A program made the translations under genes and the position numbers. Below are positions 10,824 through 57,596 of a stretch of 64,000 bases of DNA, in pieces. The notes under the pieces are model-generated. The model worked only from the letters and a program-made list of their open reading frames with translations. It made no database searches and had not been told where the DNA came from. Source of the stretch: Pantoea sp. Ep11b (GTDB lineage Bacteria > Pseudomonadota > Gammaproteobacteria > Enterobacterales > Enterobacteriaceae); assembly GCF_040783975.1 (NCBI RefSeq), contig NZ_CP160631.1, positions 3,286,001 to 3,350,000 on the forward strand. The letters run 5' to 3'. The first letter of the stretch is position 1, and each line of letters opens with the position of its first letter.

Positions 10824-12158
10824 CTACTCTTTAAAATCACTGGCATCCAGTTCATGGCGGGAGAGCAGCTTGTAAAACTCGGTGCGGTTGCGTCCGGCCA
10901 GGCGTGCGGCATTGGTGACGTTGCCTTTGGTCATCTGCAGCAGTTTTCGCAGGTAGTTCAGCTCGAACTGATTGCGGGCCTCCGCAAAGGTCGGCAACGC
11001 GCTGTTTTCGCCGCTTAACGCCTGCTCCACCAGCGCATCGCTGATCACCGGCGATGAGCTGAGCGCAACGCACTGCTCAATCACGTTCACCAGCTGGCGG
11101 ACGTTGCCCGGCCAGCTGGCGGCCATCAGGCGCTTCATCGCATCGACCGAAAAACTGCGCACCTGAGGTTTATGGCGCTCCGCGGCCTGACGCAGCAGAT
11201 GATTCGCCAGCAGCGGGATATCCTCCGTGCGCTGATGCAGCGCCGGAATTTTCAGGTTCACCACGTTGAGGCGATAGAAGAGATCTTCGCGGAACTCTTT
11301 TTTCTCCATCGCTTTTGGCAGATCGCGATGCGTCGCAGAGATGATACGCACATCAATATCAATATCGTGATCGCTGCCCAGCGGCCTGACCTTGCGTTCC
11401 TGCAACACCCGCAGAAGCTTTACCTGCAGCGGCTGAGGCATGTCGCCGATCTCATCCAGAAACAGCGTGCCGCCGCCCGCGGTTTTAAACAGGCCGTCAC
11501 GGGCGCTGACCGCTCCGGTGAAAGCCCCTTTCGCATGTCCGAACAGCTCGGACTCCAGCAGCTGCTCCGGCAGTGCGCCGCAGTTGATGGCCACAAAGGG
11601 TTTACCGTTGCGCGGGCTGGCGGCGTGGATCGCCTGTGCCAGCATCTCTTTGCCGGTGCCGCTCTGGCCGTTAATCAGCACGCTGACGTCTGACTGCGCC
11701 ACCATGTGTGCCTGCTCCAGCAGCCGCAGCATCAGCGGACTGCGGGTAACAATCGCCTCGCGCCAGCGGTCGTCGCTGACCGGTGCCTGCTGAGCCAGCG
11801 CCTCATCAATTGCTTTATAGAGCGCATCCCGATCCACCGGTTTGGTCAGGAAGCTGAACACGCCCTGCTGAGTGGCGGAAACAGCATCCGGGATGGAGCC
11901 ATGCGCGGTCAGGATAATCACCGGCAGACCGGTATGGCGTTTCTGAATCTCGCCAAACAGCGCCAGGCCATCCATTTCATCCATCCGCAGATCGCTGATC
12001 ACCAGTTCGATTTTCTCTTTCTGCAGCAGACGTAACGCTTCGGGTCCGCTGGCCGCTGTGGTGACCTGATAACCTTCGCTGCGCAGACGCATTCCCAGCA
12101 GCTTCAGCAGGCTGGGATCGTCATCCACCAGCAGCAGTTTTGCCGCCTGTCTGACCAT
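10824..12158 (-). CDS. glrR: sigma54-dependent response regulator GlrR (QseF)
   Basis: A 444-aa NtrC-type activator. The receiver domain has phospho-acceptor D56 (VISDLRMDEMDG) and K106. The AAA+ domain has Walker A GQSGTGKE (164-171) and the sigma54-contacting GAFTGA loop (211-216). A C-terminal Fis-type helix-turn-helix (NVTNAARLAGRNRTEFYKLL) binds DNA. Its ATG overlaps the qseG stop by one base (TAATG), so it is translationally coupled. The expected target, glmY with a sigma54 promoter and four TGTC-N10-GACA-like sites, lies just upstream of this operon. Confidence 0.95.
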   Translation of the reverse strand: MVRQAAKLLLVDDDPSLLKLLGMRLRSEGYQVTTAASGPEALRLLQKEKIELVISDLRMDEMDGLALFGEIQKRHTGLPVIILTAHGSIPDAVSATQQGVFSFLTKPVDRDALYKAIDEALAQQAPVSDDRWREAIVTRSPLMLRLLEQAHMVAQSDVSVLINGQSGTGKEMLAQAIHAASPRNGKPFVAINCGALPEQLLESELFGHAKGAFTGAVSARDGLFKTAGGGTLFLDEIGDMPQPLQVKLLRVLQERKVRPLGSDHDIDIDVRIISATHRDLPKAMEKKEFREDLFYRLNVVNLKIPALHQRTEDIPLLANHLLRQAAERHKPQVRSFSVDAMKRLMAASWPGNVRQLVNVIEQCVALSSSPVISDALVEQALSGENSALPTFAEARNQFELNYLRKLLQMTKGNVTNAARLAGRNRTEFYKLLSRHELDASDFKE

Positions 12159-12817
12159 TACTGTTCCTCCTCCTGCGGCAGCGCCGTGCCGTGACCGTTG
12201 TCAGAGACATCCGGCGCTTTGCGTGACGAGAGCTGACGCTCAATGTCAGTCAGCCGCTCCAGCTTATGCTGTGTGTCACTGAGTTGTTGCTGTTGTTTCA
12301 CCATCTGCTGGCGCGTCGCCTCCAGCTGGGCATCGCTGCTCTGCTGGAGATGCGCATAACGGGTGCGTGCCTCGCTCAGGTCGAGCTGCGCGGTCTGATT
12401 GCTGCGCCAGAGCTGAATCAGCGGGCGCAAAGAGGAGGGGAAGTCGCTGCTGTAGCGATCCAGGGTTTCCACATAGCGACGACGCTCGACGGGCGTGACG
12501 TTGCCGTTGGACATCAGCACGCCCTGCTTAAAGGCGCGCGACCAGCTCTCAGCTGGCCAGCGGTGGGCTTCTGCCCGGGCTTCGGCGGGGGAAAGATGCT
12601 CCGCGCAGTCGATCGCCCGCATCCAGTAGAGGGGATTATTCAGCGCCTCGCCCTTCTCCACCGGCCACAGGTCGTTGCAGCGGATCGCCAGATAATCAGC
12701 GACTCTGACCTCGGGTTCCGCCACCTGATGGCCTGACGGCAGAGAGGAGGTGGCCGGGGAGGTCGTACAGCCGCAGAGCAGCAGCGTGCTCAGCAGCAAA
12801 GCGGGTAAATATTTCAT
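12158..12817 (-). CDS. qseG: outer-membrane lipoprotein QseG
   Basis: This 219-aa lipoprotein has a lipobox LCGC with acylated C17 after a short hydrophobic leader, then a helical body with a coiled-coil stretch rich in Gln (about 150-190). In enterobacteria QseG interacts with the sensor kinase GlrK and is needed for its signalling. It sits between glrK and glrR in the operon, three bases after glrK. Confidence 0.9.
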   Translation of the reverse strand: MKYLPALLLSTLLLCGCTTSPATSSLPSGHQVAEPEVRVADYLAIRCNDLWPVEKGEALNNPLYWMRAIDCAEHLSPAEARAEAHRWPAESWSRAFKQGVLMSNGNVTPVERRRYVETLDRYSSDFPSSLRPLIQLWRSNQTAQLDLSEARTRYAHLQQSSDAQLEATRQQMVKQQQQLSDTQHKLERLTDIERQLSSRKAPDVSDNGHGTALPQEEEQ

Positions 12818-12820
12818 CGG

Positions 12821-14248
12821 TCAGACATTCCCGGCTGTGGTGTTCAGTTCAATTCGAAAACAGACGTCAGCCTGCTCGCAGGGGACCAGCGTCAGGTCGC
12901 CGTGCATCCGGCGCAGGCAATCCTTGGCAATACTGAGTCCCAGCCCGCTGCCTTTTACCGGCCCTTTGCGCTGCTGGCTGCCCTGGAAGAAGGGTTCGAA
13001 AATCATCGCCTGCTCTTCCAGCGGGATCGGCGTTCCGCTGTTCGCGACCTCAATCCATATCCTGTCGCCCTGCTGCTGACTGCGCAGCCAGATGGTACCG
13101 GATTCGCTGCCGTAGTTCACGGCGTTCGAATAGAGGTTATCAATGACCCGCATCAGTAACGTCGGTTCAGCAAGGCAGTGGCTGACCTGGAGATCGACCA
13201 CCGTCTGCATCAGTTTGGCGCGCGCAGAGAGTGCATGGGCGTTAACCACGTTCTCCACGATCTCCGTCACGCTGACCGGTTCAAGCTGAATCGGGCCATC
13301 CGCCAGTTTGCGGTTGTAATCCAGCAGTTGCTCGATCAGGCGCTGCAGATGGCGGCTGCTGCCGTCGAGGATGGTCACCACCTCTTTCTGGTCGGCGTTC
13401 AGCGATCCAGCGACCTCATCAGCCAGCAGCTCGGTGCCTTCGCGCAGGCTGGCCAGCGGCGTTTTCAGCTCGTGAGAGAGATGGCGCAGAAACTCGTGAC
13501 GCTGCGACTCCAGCCACTGCAGCCGTTCGCTGAGCCAGACGATACGCTGCCCCAGCGAGCGCAGCTCACGCGGGCCGCGAAATATTACGCTGTTGCCCAG
13601 CTCCCGGCCCTCTCCCAGCCGGTTGATCATGCGTTCGATGCGCTTAACCGGGCCGATGATCATGCCGGTAAACAGCAGCATCAGCGCCAGGCTGATGATA
13701 AACAGAATCAGCGCCTGCCAGCCGAAAAACTGGCCACGATCGGCGATTTCGCGCTGCAGTTGCAGGCCGCGCGAAAAGACCACCTCGCGCGTCTCCTGCA
13801 CCATCTGCGCGTTGGTGACGGAGAAGCGGTCCAGCGCCTCGGCGGCGCGCGGAACGGGGTTGCCGTTATCACATTGCAGCGGCGTCAGCAGCGGCAGGGT
13901 CGCCTGCAAAATCCGGAACACCGGCAGCTCAGGCAGGCTGGCGCTGTGCGAGTTCAGCATCTGACTGTAACGGGTATGCTGAGTCTGATAGAGGCGAGCC
14001 AGTGAGGCATCATCCAGCACACAATACTGACGATAGCCGCGCTCCAGCTCAACAGCCGTTCGTGCCATCGCCTCACTTCTGCGCACGTCGGTGAAGGTGT
14101 TGCGGTTGGTGTCCGCGGCCTGTTCGCTTAACGCAGAGAGACTCTCCCACGCCTGCCAGGCCAGCACCAGTAACGGCAGCAGGACCAGAACAAACGCCAT
14201 CAGCACCAGCTGACGCAGCGAGCGGGGAAATAAACGCCATTTTTTCAC
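12821..14248 (-). CDS. glrK: sensor histidine kinase GlrK (QseE)
   Basis: A 475-aa membrane kinase: TM1 at about 12-32, a periplasmic sensor (about 33-176), TM2 at about 177-198, HAMP (about 199-250), a HisKA domain with phospho-acceptor H259 (LRHLSHELKTPLASL) and a HATPase domain (NLYSNAVNYG, GSGLGLSIAKD). It phosphorylates GlrR to activate sigma54-dependent transcription of glmY. It is the first gene of glrK-qseG-glrR(-glnB). Confidence 0.95.
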   Translation of the reverse strand: MKKWRLFPRSLRQLVLMAFVLVLLPLLVLAWQAWESLSALSEQAADTNRNTFTDVRRSEAMARTAVELERGYRQYCVLDDASLARLYQTQHTRYSQMLNSHSASLPELPVFRILQATLPLLTPLQCDNGNPVPRAAEALDRFSVTNAQMVQETREVVFSRGLQLQREIADRGQFFGWQALILFIISLALMLLFTGMIIGPVKRIERMINRLGEGRELGNSVIFRGPRELRSLGQRIVWLSERLQWLESQRHEFLRHLSHELKTPLASLREGTELLADEVAGSLNADQKEVVTILDGSSRHLQRLIEQLLDYNRKLADGPIQLEPVSVTEIVENVVNAHALSARAKLMQTVVDLQVSHCLAEPTLLMRVIDNLYSNAVNYGSESGTIWLRSQQQGDRIWIEVANSGTPIPLEEQAMIFEPFFQGSQQRKGPVKGSGLGLSIAKDCLRRMHGDLTLVPCEQADVCFRIELNTTAGNV

Positions 14249-43582: not shown

Positions 43583-43944
43583 GGGGCTGATTCTGGACTC
43601 GACGGGATTGTGAAGCCTTAGGAGCATGCCGAGGGGCGGTTTGCCTCGTAAAAAGCCGCAAAAAAATAGTCGCAAACGACGAAAACTACGCTTTAGCAGC
43701 TTAATAACCTGCTCTGAGCCCTCTCTCCCTAGCTTCCGCTCTTAAGACGGGGATCAAGAGAGGTCAAACCCAAAAGAGATCGCGTGGATGCCTTGCCTGG
43801 GGTTGAAGCGTTAAATCCAATCAGGATAGTCTGTTAGTGGCGTGTCTGTTCGCAGCTAACCGGCGAATGTAAAAACTGACTAAGCATGTAGTGCCGACGG
43901 TGTAGTAATTTCGGACGCGGGTTCAACTCCCGCCAGCTCCACCA
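43583..43944 (+). ncRNA. ssrA: transfer-messenger RNA (tmRNA)
   Basis: The 362-base RNA begins GGGGCTGATTCTGGACTCGA and ends with the tRNA-like acceptor GTTCAACTCCCGCCAGCTCC plus ACCA. The tag frame (43672-43704) encodes ANDENYALAA followed by two stop codons. It rescues stalled ribosomes together with SmpB. Its 3' end is the likely attachment site of the island that follows. Confidence 0.98.
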
Positions 43945-43989
43945 AAATTCTTCAAAGATGGTTCCAGTGCCATCCGCAGAAGTCCTGAA

Positions 43990-44022
43990 AGCCCGCACGG
44001 CACAAGCCCTGCGGGCTTTTTT
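43990..44022 (+). terminator. terminator after ssrA
   Basis: The stem AGCCCGCA/TGCGGGCT (43990-43997, 44010-44017) with a 12-base loop is followed by T6. Confidence 0.75.
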
Positions 44023-44089
44023 GTGCCCTCAATTTATCCCGCGAAGTCTGATGCCAACTAATTAAATCCGAACCTTTTAGGCCCATTGA

Positions 44090-44128
44090 TAGGCCCAACG
44101 AAAAGCTCTGTTGTTTTCGTTGGGCCTA
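44090..44128. repeat. perfect 15-bp inverted repeat before the integrase gene
   Basis: TAGGCCCAACGAAAA (44090-44104) and TTTTCGTTGGGCCTA (44114-44128) are separated by nine bases and end 18 bases before the int ATG. It could form a strong hairpin in the int leader or bind the integrase or its excisionase near the attachment site. Confidence 0.85.
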
Positions 44129-44146
44129 AACGCATGGAGACTCCCC

Positions 44147-45388
44147 ATGGCAAGAAAAACCAAGCCGTTAACTGATACGGAAATCAAAGCCGCCAAACCT
44201 AAAGATGCCGATTACCAGCTGTATGATGGTGACGGGCTTACTCTGTTAATCAAGTCCAGTGGTAATAAGCTCTGGCAGTTCCGTTACTATCGACCTCTGA
44301 CAAAGCAGCGAACCAAGCAGAGCTTCGTTGCCTACCCTGCCGTCTCACTTTCTGATGCGCGAAAACTTAGAGCCGAATCTCGAGTTTTATTGGCAAAAGA
44401 TATCGATCCTCAGGATCATCAGAAAGAACAGGTGAGGAATTCTCAAGAGGCCAAAACCAATACCTTCTTGTTAGTTGCCGATCGTTGGTGGAATGTGAAG
44501 AAAGCCAGCGTAACAGAGGATTATGCCGACGATATCTGGCGCTCGCTTGAGAGAGATGTTTTCCCAGCAGTTGGTGATATCAGTGTCACTGAGATTAAGG
44601 CTCATACTCTGGTTAAAGCAGTGCTGCCAGTTCAGGCCAGAGGTGCATTAGAGACAGTCCGACGCCTTTGTCAGCGTATTAATGAAGTCATGATTTACGC
44701 GCAGAACACAGGCTTGATTGATGCAGTTCCTAGTGTCAATATCGGAAAAGCATTCGAGAAACCGCAAAAGAAAAATATGCCGAGCATCCGCCCGGATCAA
44801 TTTCCACAGTTAATGCAAACAATGCGTAAGGCAAGTATCAGTGTGTCCACGCGGTGTCTGTTCATGTGGCAGCTTCTCACCATTACCCGCCCTGCCGAAG
44901 CTGCTGAGGCTCGATGGGATGAGATCGATTTCAATGCTAGCGAATGGAAAATTCCTGCAGCTCGAATGAAGATGAACAGGGACCATACGGTTCCACTATC
45001 CGATGAGGGTCTCTCTATTCTGGAAATGATGAAGTCACTCAGTGGTGGCCGAGAGTTTATCTTTCCCAGTCGTATCAAACCAACCCAGCCGATGAACAGC
45101 CAGACTGTGAATGCGGCACTCAAGCGCGCTGGTTTAGGAGGCGTACTCGTATCTCACGGTTTGCGTTCTATCGCCAGTACGGCACTCAATGAAGAAGGAT
45201 TTCCTCCTGATGTTATTGAGGCAGCACTGGCTCATGTAGACAAAAATGAGGTACGTCGCGCTTATAACCGTAGTGATTATCTTGAGCAACGGCGACCGAT
45301 GATGCAATGGTGGGCTGATTTGGTAAGCAAGGCCGACAGCGGAAGTAGTGTTGAAAACGGGAAGAGGGTGTTCAAACTCGTTGGCTAA
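44147..45388 (+). CDS. tyrosine-type site-specific integrase (P4/CP4-57 family)
   Basis: A 413-aa recombinase. The N-terminal DUF4102 arm-binding domain (LTDTEIKAAKPKDADYQLYD) is followed by a core-binding domain and a catalytic domain with the Arg of TITRPAEAAEARW, the HGLR box and the H...Y pair in AHVDKNEVRRAYNRSDY. It lies directly after ssrA, where such integrases recombine. ATG at 44147 has GGAGA upstream. It appears intact. Confidence 0.95.
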   Translation: MARKTKPLTDTEIKAAKPKDADYQLYDGDGLTLLIKSSGNKLWQFRYYRPLTKQRTKQSFVAYPAVSLSDARKLRAESRVLLAKDIDPQDHQKEQVRNSQEAKTNTFLLVADRWWNVKKASVTEDYADDIWRSLERDVFPAVGDISVTEIKAHTLVKAVLPVQARGALETVRRLCQRINEVMIYAQNTGLIDAVPSVNIGKAFEKPQKKNMPSIRPDQFPQLMQTMRKASISVSTRCLFMWQLLTITRPAEAAEARWDEIDFNASEWKIPAARMKMNRDHTVPLSDEGLSILEMMKSLSGGREFIFPSRIKPTQPMNSQTVNAALKRAGLGGVLVSHGLRSIASTALNEEGFPPDVIEAALAHVDKNEVRRAYNRSDYLEQRRPMMQWWADLVSKADSGSSVENGKRVFKLVG

Positions 45389-45539
45389 GTTTCAAGTTGG
45401 CCTGGTTTGAATGACTAGTTTTCCTGTAAAAAATAGCATTAGCCCTGACCGATTTAGTAGGTAGATTACAATCGAATCAGGGTGGTCAGCTTTGACTCAA
45501 AAGGTCTCTTCGCTTTGCAAGTATAGCCAGAGCCTTCTC

Positions 45540-45626
45540 TTGACAAAATCGGTGTATCCTGTAATTTGAGCGCGCGCTCCCCGGCTCTCGCGCGCGATCA
45601 TACCTACACGCGCTTCTCAGGTATGT
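45540..45626 (+). other. promoter-like motif followed by two inverted repeats (possible small RNA)
   Basis: The 301-base gap 45389-45689 has no convincing gene. It does have TTGACA (45540-45545) with TAATTT (45562-45567), then a GC-rich palindromic stretch (about 45570-45596, GCGCGCG arms) and CATACCT/AGGTATG arms (about 45599-45626). This could be a short transcript with hairpins or simply the 3' region shared by the convergent genes. Confidence 0.25.
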
Positions 45627-45689
45627 GTTTGATCTCAAAGGCATTTATGTCTGCGAATAGGACAGGATTGTGAAGAGGGGGGACGCGCC

Positions 45690-46622
45690 CTAATTCTTCG
45701 TTGTTTTCCTATAAATGCTTTCCAGCCTAAGCTCTTGAAAGACTCTCTGCCTAATCAAAGCTCTTTCCTTCCAGTTGTCTTCATAGATGATTTGCTCATC
45801 TAGTCTTACATATACTACGCAGTTGCCTTTATCTGAGAAATGCACGTTTCTATACACCGCCAGCACTTTTCTGTTTACGATGATCTTGTTTCCATTCTGC
45901 ACTGCTGTTCCAGGCAGAGTTTGGATCTGGTGCGGAGTTTTTCCGAGTATTTGTTTGGCAAATGGCAAGACTGTCAAGCTATCTCGAATATGCGATTGGG
46001 CTCGTGTTATTCTTGTTAGATGTCGCCATGCATAATTGCTGATGGATATCGTTCCAAGGCAGCTGGATACAATTCCTCGGATTTTAGAAAATCTAGGACG
46101 AGACCATTCTCGTACTTGAGCAGTAGTGGTGAATACTGGAACGGTAAACTTTCCCATTCCACGTATAGGTTCGCGCTGTTTATGTATAAGTCGCTCGATT
46201 TCAAATCTGGAGGCTGGTGTCAGAATGTGATTTTCAGAAACTGATAAGGTCTCAATTGGCGTTTTTTTGTCGATGAGCTTCCAGTAAATCTTTGTTTCTG
46301 GATCAAGGCGTACCCAAATTAAAATTACGGGTTGATTGGTAGCTTTCCACTTTCTCAAGTGATCTTTATCAATATTCTGTAAGCGCCATCGATTTTTTGT
46401 CGGCGTCCACCGCCCGAAGCTTGATCCGGTTTTAACTTGCACAGCTACTTGTGCGTGGGTTGGGCTGGGAAAATTGACTGGATACTTCAACTGAAGATCA
46501 AGGGCCCCTATTCCTTCTCCACGCATGGTCTCACGTAGAGCTTCTCCATTGAAAATTAGAGATAACACACTTGCAGCCAAATTCTCACCAGCATTGCCTT
46601 GGTCGAAATCAAAAATGTTCAT
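45690..46622 (-). CDS. DUF4365 domain protein (PD-(D/E)XK nuclease-like)
   Basis: A 310-aa protein. Residues about 1-130 carry the DUF4365 pattern: GNAGENLAASVLS helix, GIGALDLQLKYP with the candidate acidic residue, AVQVKTGSSFGRW with the Q-x-K core, and LRKWKATNQPVILIWV followed by KIYWKLID. This is the fold of a restriction-endonuclease-like domain. The C-terminal half is unassigned. ATG at 46622 is preferred over the preceding TTG. It stands alone between the integrase and the STAND gene, and a defence or DNA-processing role is inferred. Confidence 0.75.
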   Translation of the reverse strand: MNIFDFDQGNAGENLAASVLSLIFNGEALRETMRGEGIGALDLQLKYPVNFPSPTHAQVAVQVKTGSSFGRWTPTKNRWRLQNIDKDHLRKWKATNQPVILIWVRLDPETKIYWKLIDKKTPIETLSVSENHILTPASRFEIERLIHKQREPIRGMGKFTVPVFTTTAQVREWSRPRFSKIRGIVSSCLGTISISNYAWRHLTRITRAQSHIRDSLTVLPFAKQILGKTPHQIQTLPGTAVQNGNKIIVNRKVLAVYRNVHFSDKGNCVVYVRLDEQIIYEDNWKERALIRQRVFQELRLESIYRKTTKN

Positions 46623-46838
46623 CAAATTTCCGTGTAATTATCATGCTGAACTTATCAGCAATTTTGAATACAGCGACAGTAGAATCTAATCGACTGTCTA
46701 ACACATATTAGGATCAACTTAGGGATGCTAGGGAGTGACTGCTGTGTGTTACGACAGCAAACACATGGCAGTTTTCTACTTGTCTTGACAGGCTGTAAAC
46801 GACCAATTGCATCCGTTCAAGAATGGACCAGGAAAATC

Positions 46839-49698
46839 CTAAGCCTCCGGTAAATGGTTGCTTTCTCGCCGCTTCAGCTCTTCCAATCTCCCCACCAACG
46901 CATTTTTATACTTCCCTGCCTGGCACGCCTCCAGCGCTGCCTCCGTTTGCTCGATTGCTGCCTCTGTTGCACCCAATGCTTCATGGCATTTACTAAGCAA
47001 CTCATGATAACTAGCGATGCGCTCAAGCCCTTTTTTATCGTCTTTGGCAAGCACAAGAGCACGTTCAGCGGTCTTCAATCCATCGCCAAGTTTGCCAACT
47101 CCTAATTCTGCCTCTGCCTTGCGATACAATAGCCAATGGTCCATGTTGAGGACTTCAGGCGGAATCTTCAAGATTGTATCCAACGCCTCATCCGACATTC
47201 CGGCTAAAAGGTACATTTTGGCGATTGCGCGTGCGTCATAACTCCTGAATCCAGGTTTACTCCCTAGTGCCGTGGCAAATACAACCCCGGCCGCCGTGAT
47301 TCTATCGCGTAAATCAGTCTTTCCTGCTTCGCCTGCTGCTACTGCAGTATTACCAAGCGACTCGCACGCACTAATCCATTGGCTCTTATCAACCAATTCG
47401 GGTGGCATGGAGAGAATCTCTGGGAATCCCTCAGCCAGCGCCACGCAAATCTCCGGATGCTGATAGGCAAAAATGGAGGTGAAAGACAGGTAGGCCTCAT
47501 AAAATTGGTCTAGTCCTTCTAAAGCCGACAGAGCAATCACATCTGCAAGAGACTGCACCTGCTCAGTATTGCTCACCGCCTCGTTGGCAACCTTCCTGTA
47601 GGAGCGAAGTCGCGCGACGGATGCTAATGAGACTCGTAATGGAACATCCCACGGAGCTGCGATAACTCGCTCGACGAGAGTTTGCATTGCATGCGCTCCC
47701 GCCATTTTAATTGATTCGTCGGCCTTGTTCTGTGTCCCCATATGCGCAATCTGTAGATAAGTTGCATGCCACTCGGGACGAATCTCTAGAAGCTTTTGAA
47801 AGCAGCTCAGAGCCTCTTCAAATCTACCGCAGCGGCGCAATGCCTTGCCCTGATGGTGCAAAAGCTCGAGATTCTCTTCAGATGCTGGATCTCCTTGCTG
47901 AGCCTTGCCATATTCTTCTGCACAAGCACCGAAGTACTGAAGTCGATCGTCATGATCCAGTGAATAGGCAAATGCCTCTTGCGCATCGATGACACAAAGC
48001 AGCTCTTGCAATGGCGCTCCGCAGTGAATACTTCGGCGATGAAGTTCCTGATCTTTTACAAGATTACGGCCACTATCCAGTTGCAACAAAGCGTAAGTCA
48101 GCCAATCTGGCTGCTGGGTCTGACGTCGCTTATAGCTTTCCGTAAGCTGAGATGTGCATAAGTGAATCTGTCGAATTACACTAGGGAGCATCTCCCCCGA
48201 GTGCTTTTCAACATACTGCGAAACGGCGGTGGCAATGAGTTCGACATCTGGTTTGTCACGAACGGCTTGGCAGATGAGGTCGTGCACAGACAGAAGCCCT
48301 GGCGCGACTGCAGGTTTTAGTATCGACAGACGCTGAAGGTGAAACTTTACGGCGTGCCCTAGGAAATGCCCGAGAAACTTGGCGTCATTCGAGAATGATC
48401 CAGAGTTTGCAATCTTTTGCAGACCAAGGAGATATCTTGAGTCCAATCTCTGCAAGATATTGCCCATAATTGCTGCGCCATTACTATCTGAAATGACCTG
48501 CGGTTCGGCGAGTATTTCTTCATAGACTTCTTCGCGCGGTACGTTTTCGGCTTCGACCAGCTTACGAACAGTTGCGAGAATAAGGGGGAGAATCTACAAG
48601 CCTCGATAAATTTTGCTGCTGTTGCACTTAGCCTATTACTGTCCTCGCCCAAAATGGCGGCAGCCACCTCCGCCGAGGCTGTAGGCATATGAAGCACTGA
48701 TTTGCTCGCTGGATTGAGCTGTGAAGTTACTATTACATGACCGCCTCGCTCGAACCCCTTCGAGAGATCATCAAGTGAGTTCTCGACTAACTCACGCTCC
48801 AGGCTGTCGATAACAAGCAACGTCTTATAGTTATTGAAGATGCCCGCCACATTAACAGCGACGCCACCTCTAGCGCGTTGAACTGAACTTAGCGAGGAGT
48901 CCGGCTTCCAGTCCCCCCAGAGATCCATAAGTAGTTTTCGTAACGCGAACCTTCCTGATGCAGGTAGTCGATAGTCGCCTGCGTCTTACCAGAGCCGCTG
49001 ATGCCGGTTAGTAGACAAACACGGTTTCCCTGAGCGAAGTGGTCGCGTATTGCAACCACCACAGCAGCATCGGAGACGTGATTTTCACATGATGCAGGAG
49101 CCTTGCCATAATAGGCATAGTTGTCGAGGTCTTGGGAAAAACCAGGGAAAAAACCGGTATAGAAAGCAGCAGCCGTGTGATTCTGCGTGGAGAATTCGAA
49201 GATTAGCCTTGCCAACTCGCGTGCATCAAGAATGTTAAGCCGCTCTCCATGTTCCTGAGCGATCGCCGTGCTATTGAATTTCGCGCGAAAAGATTCTGGC
49301 TCCTCTTGGCTGCATATCAGATAGATTTTTTGGGGCAACTTACCTGCTGAATGATCAAGGACATGCTTAATATCGTTCTCGATCTTAGCGTAAGTCGTAA
49401 CGGGGGCTTCGGGGATAGCGCCCTCTGTATCTTGCCCGGCTGACGCTTTGCTAACCTTGCCATGAAAGTACTCTTTCTCTGCGCTGTATTCACCGGCGAT
49501 CATGAAATCTTGCGAAAAGGTGTCGATAGTGTATCCAACAGGCCGATATTCTTTATTAATCCCGTGATGGATTAGGCGATTTTCCTCGAGCAATTCAATG
49601 AGACTATGTCCAACGATCTCGAGAGAAGAAGCATCTAGCTCGACGACTTCGCCGATTAGGTTACCAATGATTCTTTTTTTAATAAGGTCGGACTGCAT
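46839..49698 (-). pseudogene. Avs-like STAND NTPase gene with two frameshifts
   Basis: Restoring one base at the C6 run 48913-48918 and one at the G5 run 48584-48588 joins three frames into a 953-aa protein. The N-terminal domain (1-180) looks like a restriction-endonuclease-type domain (GYTIDTFSQDFMIAGEYSAE; D59 and E70 candidate residues). The P-loop is GISGSGKT (232-239) and a Walker B TLLVIDSL lies about 60 residues on. The C-terminal half has TPR-like repeats (for example FEEALSCFQKLLEIRP). This effector-STAND-TPR layout is that of antiviral Avs proteins. Unbroken reading within each segment suggests recent breakage or sequence errors. ATG at 49698 is preferred to TTG at 49743. Confidence 0.75.
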
Positions 49699-49701
49699 AT
49701 G

Positions 49702-49718
49702 CTCTCTCTCTCTCTCTC
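49702..49718 (-). repeat. dinucleotide repeat (GA)n at the ribosome site of the STAND gene
   Basis: (CT)8C on the plus strand, read as G(AG)8 in the mRNA, ends four bases before the ATG at 49698 and takes the place of the Shine-Dalgarno sequence. Slippage here would change spacing, and also the frame if the TTG at 49743 were used. Confidence 0.9.
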
Positions 49719-50153
49719 GCTCGCTCAAGTTAGGATCAGCCAACTAAACGCTGATAAGCTGGGTACGACGGGTGGAGGAGTGGCTTCACGATAATCACCA
49801 CTCACCCGCATGGTAGCTATTGCTTGTAATTATTGGAAGTCCAGACTGTAAAGAATATCTGGCCGATACCCTCATGAGCGTCCGCTTTAGATTCGCCTAG
49901 TGTGAGAATGCATGCGCCGATTTATAATCTACGTTACTACGTAAAATGTTGACCTGTTCCTCGTTGATTAATACACCGCGATGTTGGTAATGTCTTCATA
50001 CAGCTATGAATATTCACTTAATTAAAAAGTGCTTAACGAGGAACTACTAATTTTTTATCCATAACCTTTGTTTAAACATTGGCGGCAAAATGGTAAAGCA
50101 AAGATAATCTACTAACTTACATCTAAATAACTTGCTGCAAAGATAAAAACCAA

Positions 50154-50179
50154 AGCATGACAGCAATTACTGCCATGCT
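50154..50179 (-). terminator. terminator of the MBL/protease/helicase operon
   Basis: Arms AGCATGACAG and CTGCCATGCT (one mismatch, loop CAATTA) lie 16-41 bases past the helicase stop; the minus-strand sequence beyond is TTGGTTTTTATC. The rest of the 450-base gap 49744-50194 is AT-rich with no gene that I can support; it probably contains the STAND gene promoter. Confidence 0.6.
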
Positions 50180-50194
50180 TATTTTACAAACAAC

Positions 50195-52354
50195 CTACAT
50201 GTAAGACAGAGCTTTTCTTATAAAACCAATCTCAAAATCAGTTAAGTATGTATAAGAGTTTTTATCTTTTAAAATCAGAGTATTAATAACTGAGTCGATA
50301 TCATCGGCATTATCAAAGTGATTGTTGTTGAATATTTTTTTTGCGATTTGATTTGGCACACCGAACTCCTCAAGAGAGTTAACTGCTGCAGGGTAATAAA
50401 AATTTTCTAATGTAGATGCAAAAGGTTTGTAATCCCCATATGTATACCCAAACCTCTTGAATATTACCTCCTGAATATCACTAACAGCGTAAATTATTAT
50501 AGGCAAATTATAATTAACAAGACTTTTCTTAAAATTGAATACAGATTGAACAGCATCATCTATGGTATAGGTTTTATCCCTTCCTCCCCAGAAATTAAAA
50601 TCCTCGAGAATCAGTGTTTTATCGTCCACTTTATTTATAACATCACAAAGTTTTTTATGAAGCTGTGAAGCACTTCTAACTGTACCTCCTCCCATCGAAG
50701 ACACATTAAAGTTATCAAATAATATGTTTGAGAGATGCAGCAATTCATTAGATGTAGGATAAATGCTATCCCAGCGCATCAATGGATTCCACGCATTACA
50801 TTTTTCGATTAATTTTTCCGCAAAACTTATAAGTTTGTTTGGATCAATACCTTGGTGTTTAAGTAATATTTGCATAGGGAGCACATCTTGCTCATAAAAC
50901 TTTCTCACTCTATTTTTATTCTCATCATTAACATCTTGACCTAAATGTAGTAGTAATGACTCTGACGCATTTTCACTCTGAGTTACAACAGGAATATCTA
51001 TATATGGAAGTTCAATTTGTGGTTTTTCACCAAAAATAAAAACATTCCCAACATAATGCTCAAACATCCGTCCAGAACGACCAGATATGTTATTGAACGT
51101 AAACATATCCAACTTGGTTCTTCTGGTGATACAGTCATCGTAGATAATAATATTTTTGGCATTAGTGTTTACACCTTCTATTAAAGTCGATGTGCAAATT
51201 AGAATGTTTATTTTTGATTCATTAAACAAATCCACAATTAATGAACCTACTGCCCTTGGGAGCTGTGCATGATGGTAGGCAATCCCATGCCGTAAGCCGT
51301 CAATCAATGACCACTTATCATGGAAATTTACAGAAAGCCAACTAGCAAGATCATTATTTGCATTATCAGGAGAAAGTATATTAGCCGCAAGCAATCGGCA
51401 CATTAGCGAACTAACTCTTTTGGGTGATTTACAATAAATGACTGTTTGTTCATTCCTACCGACATTTGATAAAATATCTTTTAGGATTTCATCTCTTTCA
51501 ACATCAACCTTTGCATCAGCACCAGTGGTTTTTAACTTATGGTAAAACTCATTAGTTGCTACTGTGGTATACGAATCAAACCTTAGAAAAATACATCTTA
51601 ATTCCTGCTCGATTCCTGAAAAAAGACCATTTATTCGTGGTCCTAGCATGTAAAATCTCTTACACTTTGAATATAGCTCCTTAAATGCAAGATTGAGTCG
51701 ATCACAACGCTCGTCATTTTTACTTGATGGTGCAAGCTTGTAAAATTCGTCGATAATAAAGAAGTCGACTGAGCTTATGCTATATTCTAAAACTCTTTCT
51801 TGTGTAAGAATAAAAACATTTCGCTCACTCGGTTGTTGTGACACTTGAGTGATGATCTTGTAATTATCTTTATACTTATAGAGTTTTTTCTTTAACTCAT
51901 CTATCAAAGCAATTGTTGGAACAACTATTACTACATTGTTAAATTCGTTGCTAGCAATCAAAGCTTCAATAATGAGGCTTTTACCAAAACTTGTTGGCGC
52001 ACTCAATATTACATTTTCACCAGTCATAATTCTGTGAAAAACTTCAGCTTGGCGAATGTGGAAAACCTTTGTTTCATCCTGCGGAGTAGTGAAAATAGCC
52101 TTCCTAAATTCATCTTTCGATGTACTATTATTATCAATGTAAGGGAAAAGTCCTAATTCACCGAGGATATGGTCCAAAATGAAACCATTGGTCATTTCAC
52201 TTTTACGTTCCATGGCCCTAATAACAATATCCTGAACTAATGACTCATTAACATGTCCGTTGAATTCGTTTACTAAAGATAATAAAAAATCATCCCATTG
52301 TGAAAACATTGGATTATTCAATTTAGTCTTAGCTTCTTGGTACCACTGGCTCAT
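50195..52354 (-). CDS. Ski2-like superfamily 2 helicase (HamB-like)
   Basis: A 719-aa helicase. Motif I is LSAPTSFGKS (117-126), motif Ia VVPTIALIDEL, motif II IIDEFYKL with an unusual DEFY (202-205). The second RecA domain has HHAQLPR, TSTLIEGVN (388-396) and ISGRSGR (423-429), the arrangement of Ski2/Hel308-like enzymes and of HamB of Hachiman systems. The C-terminal 280 residues are helical and unassigned. The gene overlaps the preceding HamA-like gene by four bases (ATGA), so the proteins are probably made together. AT-rich composition suggests transfer. Confidence 0.85.
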   Translation of the reverse strand: MSQWYQEAKTKLNNPMFSQWDDFLLSLVNEFNGHVNESLVQDIVIRAMERKSEMTNGFILDHILGELGLFPYIDNNSTSKDEFRKAIFTTPQDETKVFHIRQAEVFHRIMTGENVILSAPTSFGKSLIIEALIASNEFNNVVIVVPTIALIDELKKKLYKYKDNYKIITQVSQQPSERNVFILTQERVLEYSISSVDFFIIDEFYKLAPSSKNDERCDRLNLAFKELYSKCKRFYMLGPRINGLFSGIEQELRCIFLRFDSYTTVATNEFYHKLKTTGADAKVDVERDEILKDILSNVGRNEQTVIYCKSPKRVSSLMCRLLAANILSPDNANNDLASWLSVNFHDKWSLIDGLRHGIAYHHAQLPRAVGSLIVDLFNESKINILICTSTLIEGVNTNAKNIIIYDDCITRRTKLDMFTFNNISGRSGRMFEHYVGNVFIFGEKPQIELPYIDIPVVTQSENASESLLLHLGQDVNDENKNRVRKFYEQDVLPMQILLKHQGIDPNKLISFAEKLIEKCNAWNPLMRWDSIYPTSNELLHLSNILFDNFNVSSMGGGTVRSASQLHKKLCDVINKVDDKTLILEDFNFWGGRDKTYTIDDAVQSVFNFKKSLVNYNLPIIIYAVSDIQEVIFKRFGYTYGDYKPFASTLENFYYPAAVNSLEEFGVPNQIAKKIFNNNHFDNADDIDSVINTLILKDKNSYTYLTDFEIGFIRKALSYM

Positions 52355-53799
52355 GAGTTTAGTTCCTTCTGCAAAGCACTATTAACTTCATTAATATCCG
52401 AAACTGGGAAATAAAAAACCCGAAGATCAATTAAGTTAATGATACTTCCCTCTGTATCTTTTTGTAATAGTTCTCTGCAACTAGCAACCTTTTCATTGAA
52501 CAGGAGTAAGAAATCATCTTTGTTATAATTTTTAATTAACTCACTATCATGCATTATGAATACTGGAATTATTATTTTATCGAATCTTTCTTCTAATTCC
52601 AAATTAGAATCTGCTAGTCGTTTTAATTTTTCTCTATGAGGCCATGAATCATCTATTTCCGACGTGAGCATAATCAATCTGTTTTTTATCGACTTAACAT
52701 CCAATATATATTTAATACTTTCAATTGCAGACAGAGTTGCTTCCTCAATACTTTGAGTAACCGCGGACGCGCCAATCCAAAGTTCAATCCCATCAAAATT
52801 AAGCACGGCATGAGTACATGAGAAAGTTTTATTGTTCACATCGAAGACTTTATTCATTATTGGGATTGTCGAGTAAGACTCTCGGATCGCTATATGTAAA
52901 CAAAGGTCACCTAAAGCATTTAAATCATCAACAGGATAACGAGATCTAGCATATTTGAATAGACTCCTATCACTTCCATTAAAATTGGTTTTTTCTTTAT
53001 GTGACAAAGAATAATCTATGATCCAATCATATACAGATTCAGTAAACTCGCTGATATTCCATTGTTTCATTGTAAAACCTATATCAATCCCTTTGATATT
53101 TGGATGATCCGCATTGCAATTGATACAATACTTAAATGGTGAGGAAGGGTAATCAGGTGATTTGTATTCAACTCCATCTTGCACTGTTATCTTTACATCG
53201 TATTTTTTCACTATATCTTGCATACCAGCATCAATAAGAAAATCTTTTACAGATAATGCATATAGTGTATTTCCCCCTTGTTGAACTAGCAAAATCCCTA
53301 TGCAATATTGCTCATGCATTATCGGTGAACCGGACATACCACTGTATTTAGTAACTGTATTAGATTGGGAAACTTCAAAACTATATTCACGACTACTCAT
53401 ATGTGAAAATGTGTTTGTTACTTTAACCCTGATAGGTGCATGGTAATGCTCTTTCTCTACAGGATAGCCGCAAGATTTAACATCACTATCCAAATTAACA
53501 GCGGTTGAATAAAGCGGTATTGCGGTATTTATCGTCCCTTCAGGTACAGTTAATATAGCCATATCTAAACTTTCATTGCTATAAATGCATTCAGCATCAA
53601 TCCCTTGTCCAAGAGAAAATAAATCACTTGAGAGAAATATTTTTATTGATGAAGCGCCATTTACAACATGATTCGCCGTTAACAACAGATCGTTTGCTAT
53701 AGAAAAGCATGTCCCTCGCATTGTTGAATTATTGGGTAACAAGGCATTGAGTATATATATACATTCAAGATTAAACTCTTCTAATATTCTATTTGTCAT
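52351..53799 (-). CDS. trypsin-like serine protease fused to HamA-like (DUF1837) domain
   Basis: This 482-aa protein has an N-terminal trypsin-like domain (about 8-190) with a complete triad: H44 in LLTANHVV, D79 in ESLDMAIL, S156 in SGMSGSPI. A CINC pair (C225, C228) may be part of a zinc site. The C-terminal region (about 245-480) resembles DUF1837/HamA: NALGDLCLHIAIRESYSTIP and then NFDGIELWIGASAV. In active HamA the last element has E-x-K; here it is A344-S-A346, so nuclease activity is probably absent. The ATG overlaps the MBL gene stop and its own stop overlaps the helicase start (both ATGA). No signal peptide, so the protease should act in the cytoplasm. The HamA assignment is from motif memory. 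Confidence 0.75.
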   Translation of the reverse strand: MTNRILEEFNLECIYILNALLPNNSTMRGTCFSIANDLLLTANHVVNGASSIKIFLSSDLFSLGQGIDAECIYSNESLDMAILTVPEGTINTAIPLYSTAVNLDSDVKSCGYPVEKEHYHAPIRVKVTNTFSHMSSREYSFEVSQSNTVTKYSGMSGSPIMHEQYCIGILLVQQGGNTLYALSVKDFLIDAGMQDIVKKYDVKITVQDGVEYKSPDYPSSPFKYCINCNADHPNIKGIDIGFTMKQWNISEFTESVYDWIIDYSLSHKEKTNFNGSDRSLFKYARSRYPVDDLNALGDLCLHIAIRESYSTIPIMNKVFDVNNKTFSCTHAVLNFDGIELWIGASAVTQSIEEATLSAIESIKYILDVKSIKNRLIMLTSEIDDSWPHREKLKRLADSNLELEERFDKIIIPVFIMHDSELIKNYNKDDFLLLFNEKVASCRELLQKDTEGSIINLIDLRVFYFPVSDINEVNSALQKELNS

Positions 53800-54929
53800 A
53801 GTTCCACCTCACAAGAACTCATTAAAAGCTTTATCATTGGATAGTTTTTTGCAATGTCAGCGACGAACCAGTCTGGTATTACATCAAGAGCATAATTAAA
53901 ATATATCTCGATTTCCTTATTACTATTAACAAAAGCAATTCTTGCTAAAGTTTCTAGGTCTGGGTGTCCATGCGAATTACCATTGGTGCTAATAAAGTAT
54001 TTCGGACTATTTATTCGCCTTAGAAGCTCTAGACTCGTATTATTTTTGCTTCCATGGTGAGAGATCTTGACAATATCAACATTTAAAATCCTCTCACTTT
54101 GTAGCTCTAACCAATCAGTAACAACAGTCGCATTACAATCCCCTAAATAAAGAATTCTTTTTCCATCAAACTCAATTAAGAATGAAAAACTACTCCTATT
54201 CGTTGGTGAAGTATCATCCTCAAATTTCGTATTTGCTAGCGCTTCTATAGAGCATTGGTTGATAGAGGAAACTCTATGATTATCATTCAATTCCCCTCTT
54301 AATCCTCCGATGTATTTTTCGAAAGCATCATAATAATCTTTACTAATGACGCGAGGCTTTATCCTTCGCTCTGATAATTTGCATTGCCAAAACTGTTGAA
54401 GTTCGCAAAGAGAATCTTGGATTGGACTAATCAGAGTAAATTTAACAGAACCAATTTCGAAAAACTCGCATACACCCCGATAAACAGCACCACCAGAGAC
54501 AACCGGATTACACTCGATGCCTTTACTGGATAACATATAAGAAAGTGATGATCCTTCAGAATATCCAATTAGCTCTTTATCTTCAATAGCAGAACACTCT
54601 TCAGAGAGAGCACGTAGTTTCATCTCAACATTACGCTCTGCTTGAGAAAACTCATTCAGTTTACCAAACAGCTGCTCTGCACCATTGAAATATACCTGGC
54701 CGATAGTTGGGCAATATGGATGGTCGAGCAATTTTATTATTCCATTGATATGATCATTATCAATATGTGTAACAATAATTGAATCAATTTTTGCTACATG
54801 TCCAATAATGCAGTCTTTCCAGTCATTGAAAGACTGCGCGGTTCCTCCATCGATCAAGATAAACTCACAATCTGTCTGTATAAAAATACAGTCCCCGTTG
54901 CCAGCTTTAAGCATTCTGATTTTGAGCAT
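53796..54929 (-). CDS. ComEC/Rec2-like metallo-beta-lactamase-fold protein
   Basis: A 377-aa MBL-fold hydrolase. The metal motif is H55-I-D57-N-D59-H60, the HxDxDH form of ComEC-type members; D264 (YLGDCNA) and H291-H292 (KISHHGSKNN) complete the site. It is the first gene of a three-gene coupled operon with a trypsin-like protease/HamA fusion and a helicase. MBL proteins of this kind also accompany trypsin-like proteases in type I AVAST and related conflict systems, which supports a role in defence. No signal peptide or membrane segments. Confidence 0.85.
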   Translation of the reverse strand: MLKIRMLKAGNGDCIFIQTDCEFILIDGGTAQSFNDWKDCIIGHVAKIDSIIVTHIDNDHINGIIKLLDHPYCPTIGQVYFNGAEQLFGKLNEFSQAERNVEMKLRALSEECSAIEDKELIGYSEGSSLSYMLSSKGIECNPVVSGGAVYRGVCEFFEIGSVKFTLISPIQDSLCELQQFWQCKLSERRIKPRVISKDYYDAFEKYIGGLRGELNDNHRVSSINQCSIEALANTKFEDDTSPTNRSSFSFLIEFDGKRILYLGDCNATVVTDWLELQSERILNVDIVKISHHGSKNNTSLELLRRINSPKYFISTNGNSHGHPDLETLARIAFVNSNKEIEIYFNYALDVIPDWFVADIAKNYPMIKLLMSSCEVEL

Positions 54930-55469
54930 CGCCTACACTCTTCTTGAAGAAAAATCTACCATACACTACGGTTCTATAAATGTATGATACTTCATTAGCT
55001 TACTTCAATCTATGTAGCGATAGAGCATTGGTAGATGTTACGATACGCGGTTATTTCACGATGAATTCTGACGTAAAAACATCAGGACGAGTATCAATAT
55101 CTGCAGCTCTGTGGCTACTTACCTGAGGTACACTCATACAGAAATTGTGCTGTTGCGAACCTGCACCAGGCGAGGAACAATGCCCAAGAAATGAATTTCA
55201 GATTAGAATCGTCGTCTGATACTATAAAGCGATCGAGATGGAAAAACATTAGTTCACTGAAACTACAAGACAACTATGTCTCATGTAGTATGAGACTTTG
55301 GTCAAAATGCTTTCCTTGAACAACATCACGTAAGCGAGGATTCCTGATAACTTGCGTATTATCTGAGGATGGGGTCTCTAAGGCAGCCTTGCCACAACCT
55401 GATTAACTCAATGAAATCCTGTGATACCTCACAGGAAGCTAAAACATCCAAACTTAATTAGTTTGAAAC
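54930..55469. other. 540-base AT-rich region without a recognised gene
   Basis: No frame longer than a few dozen codons looks coding. The part near 54930-55010 must hold the promoter of the MBL operon (minus strand), but I could not fix its elements. No tRNA, repeat array or CRISPR was seen. Confidence 0.5.
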
Positions 55470-56339
55470 TCATTTTCTCTTGAACATAAATTCTTCAAGC
55501 ATCTCTTTAAATTCACAACTAAACCATTTAACGAGCCTTCCGCGGATAGTCTCCTCTCTATTACCAGTATCATATTCCCATCTAGCTGGATTAACTTTTT
55601 TATCTTCTTCACAAAGGTAAGGTATTAGATTTTTGTAAACTTGACGTTTAGTTCTCCAGCCTTCGCGAGGGGTAATATCTCTAAGAATAGTAACAAGGAG
55701 CTCTTTCATATATTCCAGATCTGTCAGTTTATTTTTCCCACCAATGCTTGAATTGTTTTTTTTGCATGCTCGGTCAAAAGAGACCATAAGTCGATGATAA
55801 TCTGATGATGCTCTATCCTCACTTCGTGTCATATAGTTATCAATATAATAAAAAGCATCGAGCAATAAACTGCAACTCCCTTTTTTATCACCTGATTCAA
55901 ATTGGAATTGAGCACAGTAAAAATCATCATAAGCCATAGAGAGAGATAAATCTTCACAATTCTCAACATATAGACTCGCAAGCCCAGTCAATTTCCCACC
56001 AACTATCCTCTTACGATTTTCCGCCCGAACTTCCGCATAGGTTTTCTTATAAAGAAAAGGCCTCTCAACCATTATCCCACCAACATTTATAAATTCTTTG
56101 GAATAACGAATGCTATCACTATTGTCCATATCCAAAATCGGTTGCCCGTTTTTTTGTGCTATTTCAATAATCTTGAAGTCTTCAATTTTATCGCGAGCAC
56201 TTTGCCTGTAAGTACGCAGAATGTTTTGGTTACTTTCTTTTTTATCTGATTCAAGTTTTCGTTCTAGCTCAGAAGATTTGTCCTCAATAGCAGCACAGAC
56301 TTGTAGATAGAAATCATCAAAAAAAATCCACACCCACAT
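55470..56339 (-). CDS. hypothetical protein, 289 aa
   Basis: I do not recognise this protein. A charged, probably coiled-coil segment (about 20-55) is followed by a mixed region with repeated aromatic residues (SMAYDDFYCAQFQFE, LLLDAFYYIDNY) and a lysine-rich helical C-terminus. No catalytic motif or signal peptide stands out; the first few residues are hydrophobic but short. It diverges from alpA and shares the AT-rich composition of the defence operon. It may be a phage-island accessory protein. Confidence 0.7.
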   Translation of the reverse strand: MWVWIFFDDFYLQVCAAIEDKSSELERKLESDKKESNQNILRTYRQSARDKIEDFKIIEIAQKNGQPILDMDNSDSIRYSKEFINVGGIMVERPFLYKKTYAEVRAENRKRIVGGKLTGLASLYVENCEDLSLSMAYDDFYCAQFQFESGDKKGSCSLLLDAFYYIDNYMTRSEDRASSDYHRLMVSFDRACKKNNSSIGGKNKLTDLEYMKELLVTILRDITPREGWRTKRQVYKNLIPYLCEEDKKVNPARWEYDTGNREETIRGRLVKWFSCEFKEMLEEFMFKRK

Positions 56340-56459
56340 CCCTCATGAAAAGTAAATCCCTAAAGTGATTTTATTTTAATGTTACTTCCAGTGTATGACA
56401 GCCCCAGCGTGGTTGGCAATATGGACCCACCCGAACAAACGTATATTAAGGAAGCCAAG

Positions 56460-56699
56460 ATGTTACAAAACCACCTCTCCTCCCATACATCCAGTTACGC
56501 AAACGTTCCTGATTCACCGAGGATCTTGAGGCTAAAAGAAGTCATGAAAAAAATGGGAATTTCACGCTCAACCATATACGACTGGCTCAATCCAAAATCG
56601 CCACGCTACGATGAAACATTTCCAAAACAACGACAACTGGGAAGACAATCCGTTGGCTGGCTGGAGTCAGAACTGAACGAATGGGTAATGCGACGTTAG
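56460..56699 (+). CDS. AlpA-family excisionase/regulator
   Basis: A 79-aa MerR-like DNA-binding protein. RILRLKEVMKKMGISRSTIYDWL is the helix-turn-helix and the C-terminal GRQSVGWLESELNEW is the AlpA wing. ATG at 56460 has AAGGA seven bases upstream; the open frame extends further but lacks a ribosome site. In CP4-57 and P4 elements AlpA activates the integrase or acts as excisionase, which fits the ssrA-side integrase of this island. Confidence 0.9.
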   Translation: MLQNHLSSHTSSYANVPDSPRILRLKEVMKKMGISRSTIYDWLNPKSPRYDETFPKQRQLGRQSVGWLESELNEWVMRR

Positions 56700-56864
56700 A
56701 TATCATTTTACCGTATCAGTGAACCGGGGCAATTCCCCCGGTTTGCTCCACAAAATCACATTCCTCGCCCGTAATTCGAATGCAAAAAAAAACAGACCTG
56801 TACTACCGCAGTGAATACCTGACAGCGATGTTGCTGTATCGATTTTTTTCATTGCGGAGGCTAC

Positions 56865-57596
56865 ATGTCTGATTTCACAGAACAGGGCATTAATGTCCTG
56901 AAGCAACATTTATCCATTCTTCCCGGGCATATAACCAGTATGGTGCTGGAACATATACGCCAGAGCATTCATTACGAACCGGTGATTGGCATCATGGGGA
57001 AATCAGGGGTCGGAAAATCCTCGCTTTGCAATGCCCTTTTTGAACATCCTCTCAGCCCGGTCAGTCATGCGGAAGGCTGCACACGTAAACCTTTGCACTT
57101 TAACCTGAATGCAGGGGGACGCTGCCTGACGCTGGTCGATCTGCCGGGCGCAGGTGAATCGCTGAAGCATGATGAGATATATCGTCAGATGTATCAGGAA
57201 CAGTTACCGAAGCTGGATCTCATCCTCTGGGTGATGAAAGCCGATGACCGGGCCTGTACCACAGACGAAGAGTTCCACCGTTTTCTACTGGATTGTGGCG
57301 TATCGACAGACAGCATTGTTTTCGTTATCAACCAGGCTGATAAAGCTGAGCCATCGCTGGAATGGGATCGTGAAAAAGGCTCTCCTTCTGCAGAGCAACT
57401 AATGACGCTCACAGCCAGAAGTGCTGCCGTTTCACGCCAGTTCTTTACCCCTTACCCGGTTAGTGGCATACAAGAAAACCTTGTATCTTACTCGATAACG
57501 TTGTTAGCAGGCTTCATGATTCCGTGTAACTTTAATTCTTTGAAACCTGCAGACAACGCATTTAAATTTTTAATAAAACACTTTCATTTTTTATAA
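56865..57596 (+). CDS. YfjP/YeeP-type GTPase, C-terminally truncated
   Basis: Residues 1-205 are a GTPase domain: G1 GIMGKSGVGKSS, G3 VDLPGAG, G4 VINQADK. Family members in CP4-57-like prophages are about 290 aa; here the frame ends at 243 aa and the last 40 residues (from about SGIQENLVSYS) do not look like the family. The end was probably replaced or deleted. It keeps its place after AlpA as in CP4-type islands. A good GGAGG precedes the ATG. Confidence 0.8.
   Translation: MSDFTEQGINVLKQHLSILPGHITSMVLEHIRQSIHYEPVIGIMGKSGVGKSSLCNALFEHPLSPVSHAEGCTRKPLHFNLNAGGRCLTLVDLPGAGESLKHDEIYRQMYQEQLPKLDLILWVMKADDRACTTDEEFHRFLLDCGVSTDSIVFVINQADKAEPSLEWDREKGSPSAEQLMTLTARSAAVSRQFFTPYPVSGIQENLVSYSITLLAGFMIPCNFNSLKPADNAFKFLIKHFHFL

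Follow-up and report, generated by a model that had tools for sequence, protein, structure and literature searches.

A further HamMAB (nuclease-protease Hachiman) locus on a genomic island of Pantoea sp. Ep11b

The stretch of DNA analysed here (64,000 nucleotides, hereafter the window) comprises positions 3,286,001 to 3,350,000 of contig NZ_CP160631.1 of Pantoea sp. Ep11b (assembly GCF_040783975.1), and carries an operon of three genes which encode a metallo-beta-lactamase (MBL) protein, a fusion of a trypsin-like protease with a HamA domain, and a helicase. This locus is a further example of the published HamMAB architecture, described in Science in November 2025 (PMC12799240), rather than a novel type of system; it is very probably an anti-phage operon of the nuclease-protease Hachiman type which acts by the mechanism set out below. 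An initial annotation of the window, made from the sequence alone, had recognised a Hachiman core with two added modules and had allowed that the system could be known under another name, as is the case. Its architecture stands, whereas the new effector type that it proposed does not, and the loss of the HamA nuclease motif had gone unnoticed.

The three open reading frames (ORFs) lie on the minus strand and are transcribed in the order MBL protein (377 aa; 53796..54929), trypsin-HamA fusion (482 aa; 52351..53799) and helicase (719 aa; 50195..52354). Adjacent genes share four bases, TCAT on the plus strand and thus ATGA on the minus strand. The G+C content is 0.33-0.36 across 50001 to 55000 (measured over 2-kb intervals), as against 0.51-0.64 in the first 42 kb of the window and 0.54-0.59 from 59001 onwards, with intermediate values in the island between. 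The overlaps, the AT-rich composition and the reading of the trio as one transferred unit, all taken from the initial annotation, are upheld.

The fusion protein consists of a trypsin-like part (about residues 1-205), with a match to Trypsin_2 of 7.4e-12 that is above the Pfam curated cut-off, and a HamA domain (about 215-482), matched by PF08878 over residues 251-465 at 3.2e-23 (83 bits against a cut-off of 25). The triad that had been proposed for the protease, H44 (codon 53668..53670, minus strand), D79 (53563..53565, minus) and S156 within GMSGSP (53332..53334, minus), is complete in the window and throughout the alignment (91/91), which comprises the window and the 90 of 93 homologues that were at least 440 aa long, the three shorter ones having been dropped. 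A full-length trypsin-HamA model is already present in PADLOC. When the single fusion protein was compared with solved structures by phmmer there was no match at E 0.01; a profile of the fusion matched 8zue and serine proteases. Among the best 50 Foldseek rows for the fusion model there was no HamA entry, and 8zue_A is present in its VIA-align list. The Avs1b family covers only residues 26-194 of the 482, and no STAND family was found among the Pfam matches of the fusion, HamA standing behind the protease instead.

The nuclease motif of the HamA half is degenerate: within 52762..52821 (minus strand), S327, A344 and A346 replace the D, E and K of stand-alone HamA. All three residues are kept by each of the 20 alignable stand-alone HamA proteins, and none of them is kept in any of the 11 protease-fusion rows (0/11), the window included. 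In the larger fusion alignment the glutamate position of GEXK is A, V, I or L and the lysine position S, A, I or V in 91 of 91 sequences; S327 is invariant (46/46). The HamA half itself is therefore unlikely to cut DNA, and the replacements predict a domain that is catalytically dead. The stand-alone proteins came from scans of the class, in which 7 of 369 genomes matched, and of the order (24 of 394), the window's genome being in both. The motif alignment was made up of the 20 stand-alone proteins, loci L032 and L040 and the 11 fusion rows (L041 and L014 being the same record). It excluded seven of the 30 loci L020-L049 (L024, L025 and L045-L049), which the HamA profile missed, and the fusion loci L005, L007, L008 and L009. 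Of the stand-alone entries, L037 is a 156-aa ORF piece beside an internal stop, and L031 has A in place of the G of GEXK.

The last gene encodes HamB, a Ski2-like superfamily 2 helicase, with matches to Pfam DEAD and Helicase_C above the curated cut-offs, to the PADLOC HamB model at 7.5e-298 and to PDB 8zue_B at 1e-87, and with the motifs AxxxxGKS at 119, DEFY at 202 and GRSGR at 425. The Hachiman core that had been assigned to the operon is thus present in both of its parts.

A literature search returned PMC12799240 as the sole HamMAB paper on the subject, and the sole one joining Hachiman, trypsin and metallo-beta-lactamase. According to this paper, protease-HamA fusions with an upstream MBL gene occur in about 5% of Hachiman systems, and the D-GEXK motif is missing in virtually all protease-fused ones. 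In the Pseudomonas fluorescens system, PflHamMAB, HamM becomes a DNase once the protease has cleaved its two gating loops, behind I118 and behind I218; defence needs the active sites of protease, nuclease and helicase and both isoleucines, the dead HamA acts through oligomerisation, and the system is controlled by ATP and DNA (PMC12799240).

The first gene of the window operon encodes the counterpart of HamM, an MBL-fold (ComEC-like) predicted pro-nuclease. Pfam Lactamase_B matched it at 2.1e-8, above the curated cut-off, and its best Foldseek match was the ComEC MBL domain 9ic4, in agreement with the ComEC-type protein first suggested upstream of the fusion. The NCBIfam Avs1a model gave 9.4e-74, under that model's cut-off, and PADLOC gave LmuA (3.5e-79) and also Avs1a and RTasMBL. 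From 463 homologues found, 117 of the 120 listed (at least 355 aa) were aligned with the window protein, making 118 sequences. The residues of the metal motif, HxDxDH at 55-60 (HIDNDH in the window), D264, H291-H292 and H322, are kept in all 118.

In the structural model of this protein the predicted local distance difference test (pLDDT) score falls below 50, which was taken as a sign of disorder, in exactly two segments, 107-123 and 206-221, both predicted independently of the data in PMC12799240. I121 (codon 54567..54569, minus strand) lies in the first and V220 (54270..54272, minus) in the second, and they align with I118 and I218 of P0196, a 374-aa P. fluorescens protein which has Ile at exactly these two positions and is probably PflHamM; the two proteins are 39% identical (a second search gave 40%, with 95% of the query covered). 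Positions 121 and 220 are I or V in all 118 sequences and are the sole such positions within the two segments, position 121 being I in 113, as in the window, and V in five.

Co-occurrence of the three genes in other genomes, on which the initial annotation had made its reading depend, was found. A scan of genome contigs gave 18 loci, 13 of which (L002-L014) encode the protease-HamA fusion; the MBL gene is immediately upstream in 13 of 13, and HamB is downstream in all 12 that have sequence there. The distances of the four modules correlate at 0.92-0.97 over 12 loci, values reached in none of 2000 permutations; this test left out L002, from Chimaeribacter coloradensis, which is near-identical to the window, and L005, where the contig ends. 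An MBL match adjoins HamA in three of the 24 order-scan genomes, the window's own (L001), G603 (L041) and G475 (L040), and no MBL match was found beside the 20 stand-alone HamA genes within a flank of at most 1.5 kb. HamB appears as two ORFs in Marinomonas gallaica (L004, 8434-10613) and Pseudomonas taiwanensis (L012, 5031-7243). Of the remaining loci, L015-L018 have the MBL gene and a protease heading a much longer protein; they were assigned to AVAST from this layout and length, and in L015, the sole one run against Pfam, also from a NACHT domain behind the protease. L019, which has the protease without an MBL match, does not fit neatly.

Four plasmid records were matched, in one case with coverage of 80% or more of the query. 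The trio is present on a Plesiomonas plasmid, with a fusion 73% identical to that of the window and, behind a helicase annotation of 1356 bases, an IS4-like element. No match to the DNA of the MBL gene and the fusion was found in E. coli genomes, viral contigs searched with the fusion profile gave none that was confirmed, and among phages a single record matched the HamA half, at 23% identity and without annotation.

By analogy with PflHamMAB, we infer that the window copy works in the same way. HamB would sense aberrant or damaged DNA and hydrolyse ATP, and its action would cause the HamA domain, itself catalytically dead, to oligomerise, bringing together and activating the fused trypsin-like proteases. 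The protease would then cleave both disordered gating loops of HamM, behind I121 and probably behind V220, and the opened MBL active site would degrade DNA indiscriminately, so that the infected cell stops or dies.

The alternative offered by the initial annotation was a new effector which kills by proteolysis of host proteins, with the MBL protein as an accessory. The intact protease triad and the lost HamA nuclease motif would suit it. However, the MBL motif residues are invariant, the MBL gene accompanies every fusion (13/13), and the MBL protein itself bears residues aligned with both mapped protease sites. In PflHamMAB, incubating HamAB with other proteins led to no proteolysis, none of the active sites of nuclease, protease and helicase was dispensable, and the protease is a switch that cleaves the DNA-degrading MBL protein (PMC12799240). 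On these homologue data and the invariant motif, killing by proteolysis was rejected, and for the window it is very improbable. The least probable explanation is canonical Hachiman, in which HamB releases a HamA nuclease and the protease and MBL protein are extras; the HamA fold and the similarity of HamB to 8zue_B agree with it, but all three catalytic positions, S327, A344 and A346, are replaced.

Several observations weigh against the assignment of this copy to a working HamMAB system and have to be considered with it. At position 220, where 113 of the 118 sequences have I, the window is among the five with V, and in PflHamMAB mutating either isoleucine abolished defence (PMC12799240); if the valine is uncut, the operon of the window could be less effective or reliant on a single gate. 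Residue 228, which lies shortly past the end of the low-confidence segment, is also nearly invariant (I in 110, V in 7 and L in 1 of the 118), and conservation alone would therefore not single out 220. That P0196 is PflHamM was judged from the species name, a contig of the length of CP010945 and the isoleucines at 118 and 218, and not from an accession. Relative to the Chimaeribacter copy, the MBL gene has six synonymous and six non-synonymous changes, twelve being too few to judge. Lastly, in another genome of the same order (G475; L040/L056) a 504-aa HamA domain protein, which is preceded by an MBL gene and accompanied by a distant HamB, has lost D and E and kept K, so that not every MBL-HamA locus follows the simple rule. 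No protease was matched there by Pfam or profile, nor was there any N-terminal Pfam match; a GYSGTP stretch is visible, most of loop 1 is missing from the MBL protein, and the locus is possibly an independent acquisition.

Some of these points would also be expected of a decaying or inactive copy which hitch-hikes on the island: V220 is off consensus, the changes in the MBL gene are evenly divided, and a neighbouring gene of the same island, encoding an NTPase with tetratricopeptide (TPR) repeats, is broken. Against this, the three overlapping ORFs and the catalytic motifs are intact, and HamB and the fusion show few protein changes relative to their Chimaeribacter copies. V220 is common to the window and Chimaeribacter (a 92% relative, P0094, has Ile), and Val at 121 or 220 occurs in 10 of the 118 sequences and at both together in none. 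Decay is a very improbable account of the locus. For the HamMAB reading, the pattern of valines at the two positions suggests that the protease tolerates Val, and by analogy V220 would probably be cut. The residues aligned with the cut sites are I or V in the AVAST- or Lamassu-like loci L015, L016, L018, L051 and L052, with Val occurring in loci of both kinds. A narrower proposal for the lineage of the window and Chimaeribacter, that drift at its second gate has given a Val P1 residue and that either the protease accepts beta-branched aliphatics generally or activation depends mainly on one gate, as reported for EpiAvs1a, seems to us unlikely, if conceivable.

Two IMG/VR contigs carry related MBL genes. 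One, filed as viral (L052, 5965-10738), has an MBL gene, a protein matched by the protease profile, a short ORF and an SMC-like ATPase; the second of these has a C-terminal ABC-3C domain, with Trypsin and CTD7 both under the Pfam cut-offs, and the layout is Lamassu-like with the same MBL-protease pair. In the other (L053, 730-1701 and 3253-5319), an MBL gene without most of loop 1, a lack shared by L056 beside its HamA gene, lies near an SMC-like ATPase; no protease match was found at this locus, and the shortened sequence makes its MBL protein a possible ungated relative.

The trio lies within an island (43583-57596) which adjoins the transfer-messenger RNA (tmRNA) gene (43583..43944, plus strand; ARAGORN). 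The island holds an integrase-like ORF next to that gene (44111..45388, plus; from the ORF listing, its family recognised from the translation alone), an AlpA-type island regulator (56379..56699, plus; Phage_AlpA 1.8e-21) and a GTPase gene. A search of the window for a second tmRNA 3' end, at the opposite end of the island, found none, and the right end is therefore undefined. The stretch 45351-57460 is 97.2% identical to a stretch of C. coloradensis, whose locus stops at the 45351 side, where the match may extend further; the contents of the island have therefore either passed from one of these genomes to another or been retained in them. The broken NTPase/TPR gene (46839-49743, minus) consists of three ORFs in different frames, and in the Chimaeribacter locus (about 11074-13953) its tblastn matches are nearly all in one frame. 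A DUF4365 protein (1e-9; 45690-46625, minus), 96% identical in Chimaeribacter, is a candidate second defence gene of the island and possibly nuclease-like.

Upstream of the MBL gene, an ORF of 289 aa (55470-56339, minus) was considered as a fourth gene of the operon. It has no family match, and among the compared loci tblastn found a relative only in the near-identical Chimaeribacter island; for these reasons it was not counted as part of the system. A terminator-like site on the minus strand (55436-55417; 0.4 expected) lies between it and the MBL gene. A promoter scan of 54800-55500 gave one promoter-like site, on the plus strand (1.7 expected), and none on the minus strand.

A candidate for a new effector type is hereby struck off, since it belongs to a system that has already been explained mechanistically. 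The published mechanism has at the same time been checked on other data: where the protease is fused, the HamA nuclease motif is lost and the MBL gene is present, and in loops that otherwise vary the two cut-site residues are conspicuous. Were the proposal on the V220 lineage to hold, drift at this position would offer a natural series with which to map protease specificity across unrelated immune systems. For annotators, PADLOC files the fusion under HamA1, a label that obscures the role of the adjacent MBL gene as the effector.

Among known systems, type I AVAST (Avs1a, an MBL protein, and Avs1b, a protease-STAND protein) has the same MBL and N-terminal protease families with the MBL gene upstream, so that the kinship proposed by the initial annotation is real; its sensor, however, is a STAND NTPase in place of HamA-HamB. 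In Lamassu with the MBL-protease pair, too, a protease-fused protein comes after the MBL gene (L052), but the sensor is an SMC-like ATPase. The E. coli Hachiman structure 8zue, whose molecules are named Anti-bacteriophage protein A and B (AbpAB), differs to judge from L032, where a Cap4 nuclease takes the place of the protease as the N-terminal domain and where no MBL match was found in the flank examined. Canonical Hachiman HamAB (PDB 8vx9, the ECOR31 system) shares the HamA fold and the HamB helicase, although its HamB chain is only distantly like that of the window (4.2e-6). There, HamA is the effector nuclease and has D-GEXK (PMC12799240). From PflHamMAB the window differs in having Val for Ile at the second site and in its host, a member of the Enterobacterales. 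With HamMAB the window operon shares the order of MBL, protease-HamA and helicase genes, the lost HamA nuclease motif, intact protease, metal-motif and helicase residues, and a pair of gating loops in which the mapped cut positions hold a conserved aliphatic residue.
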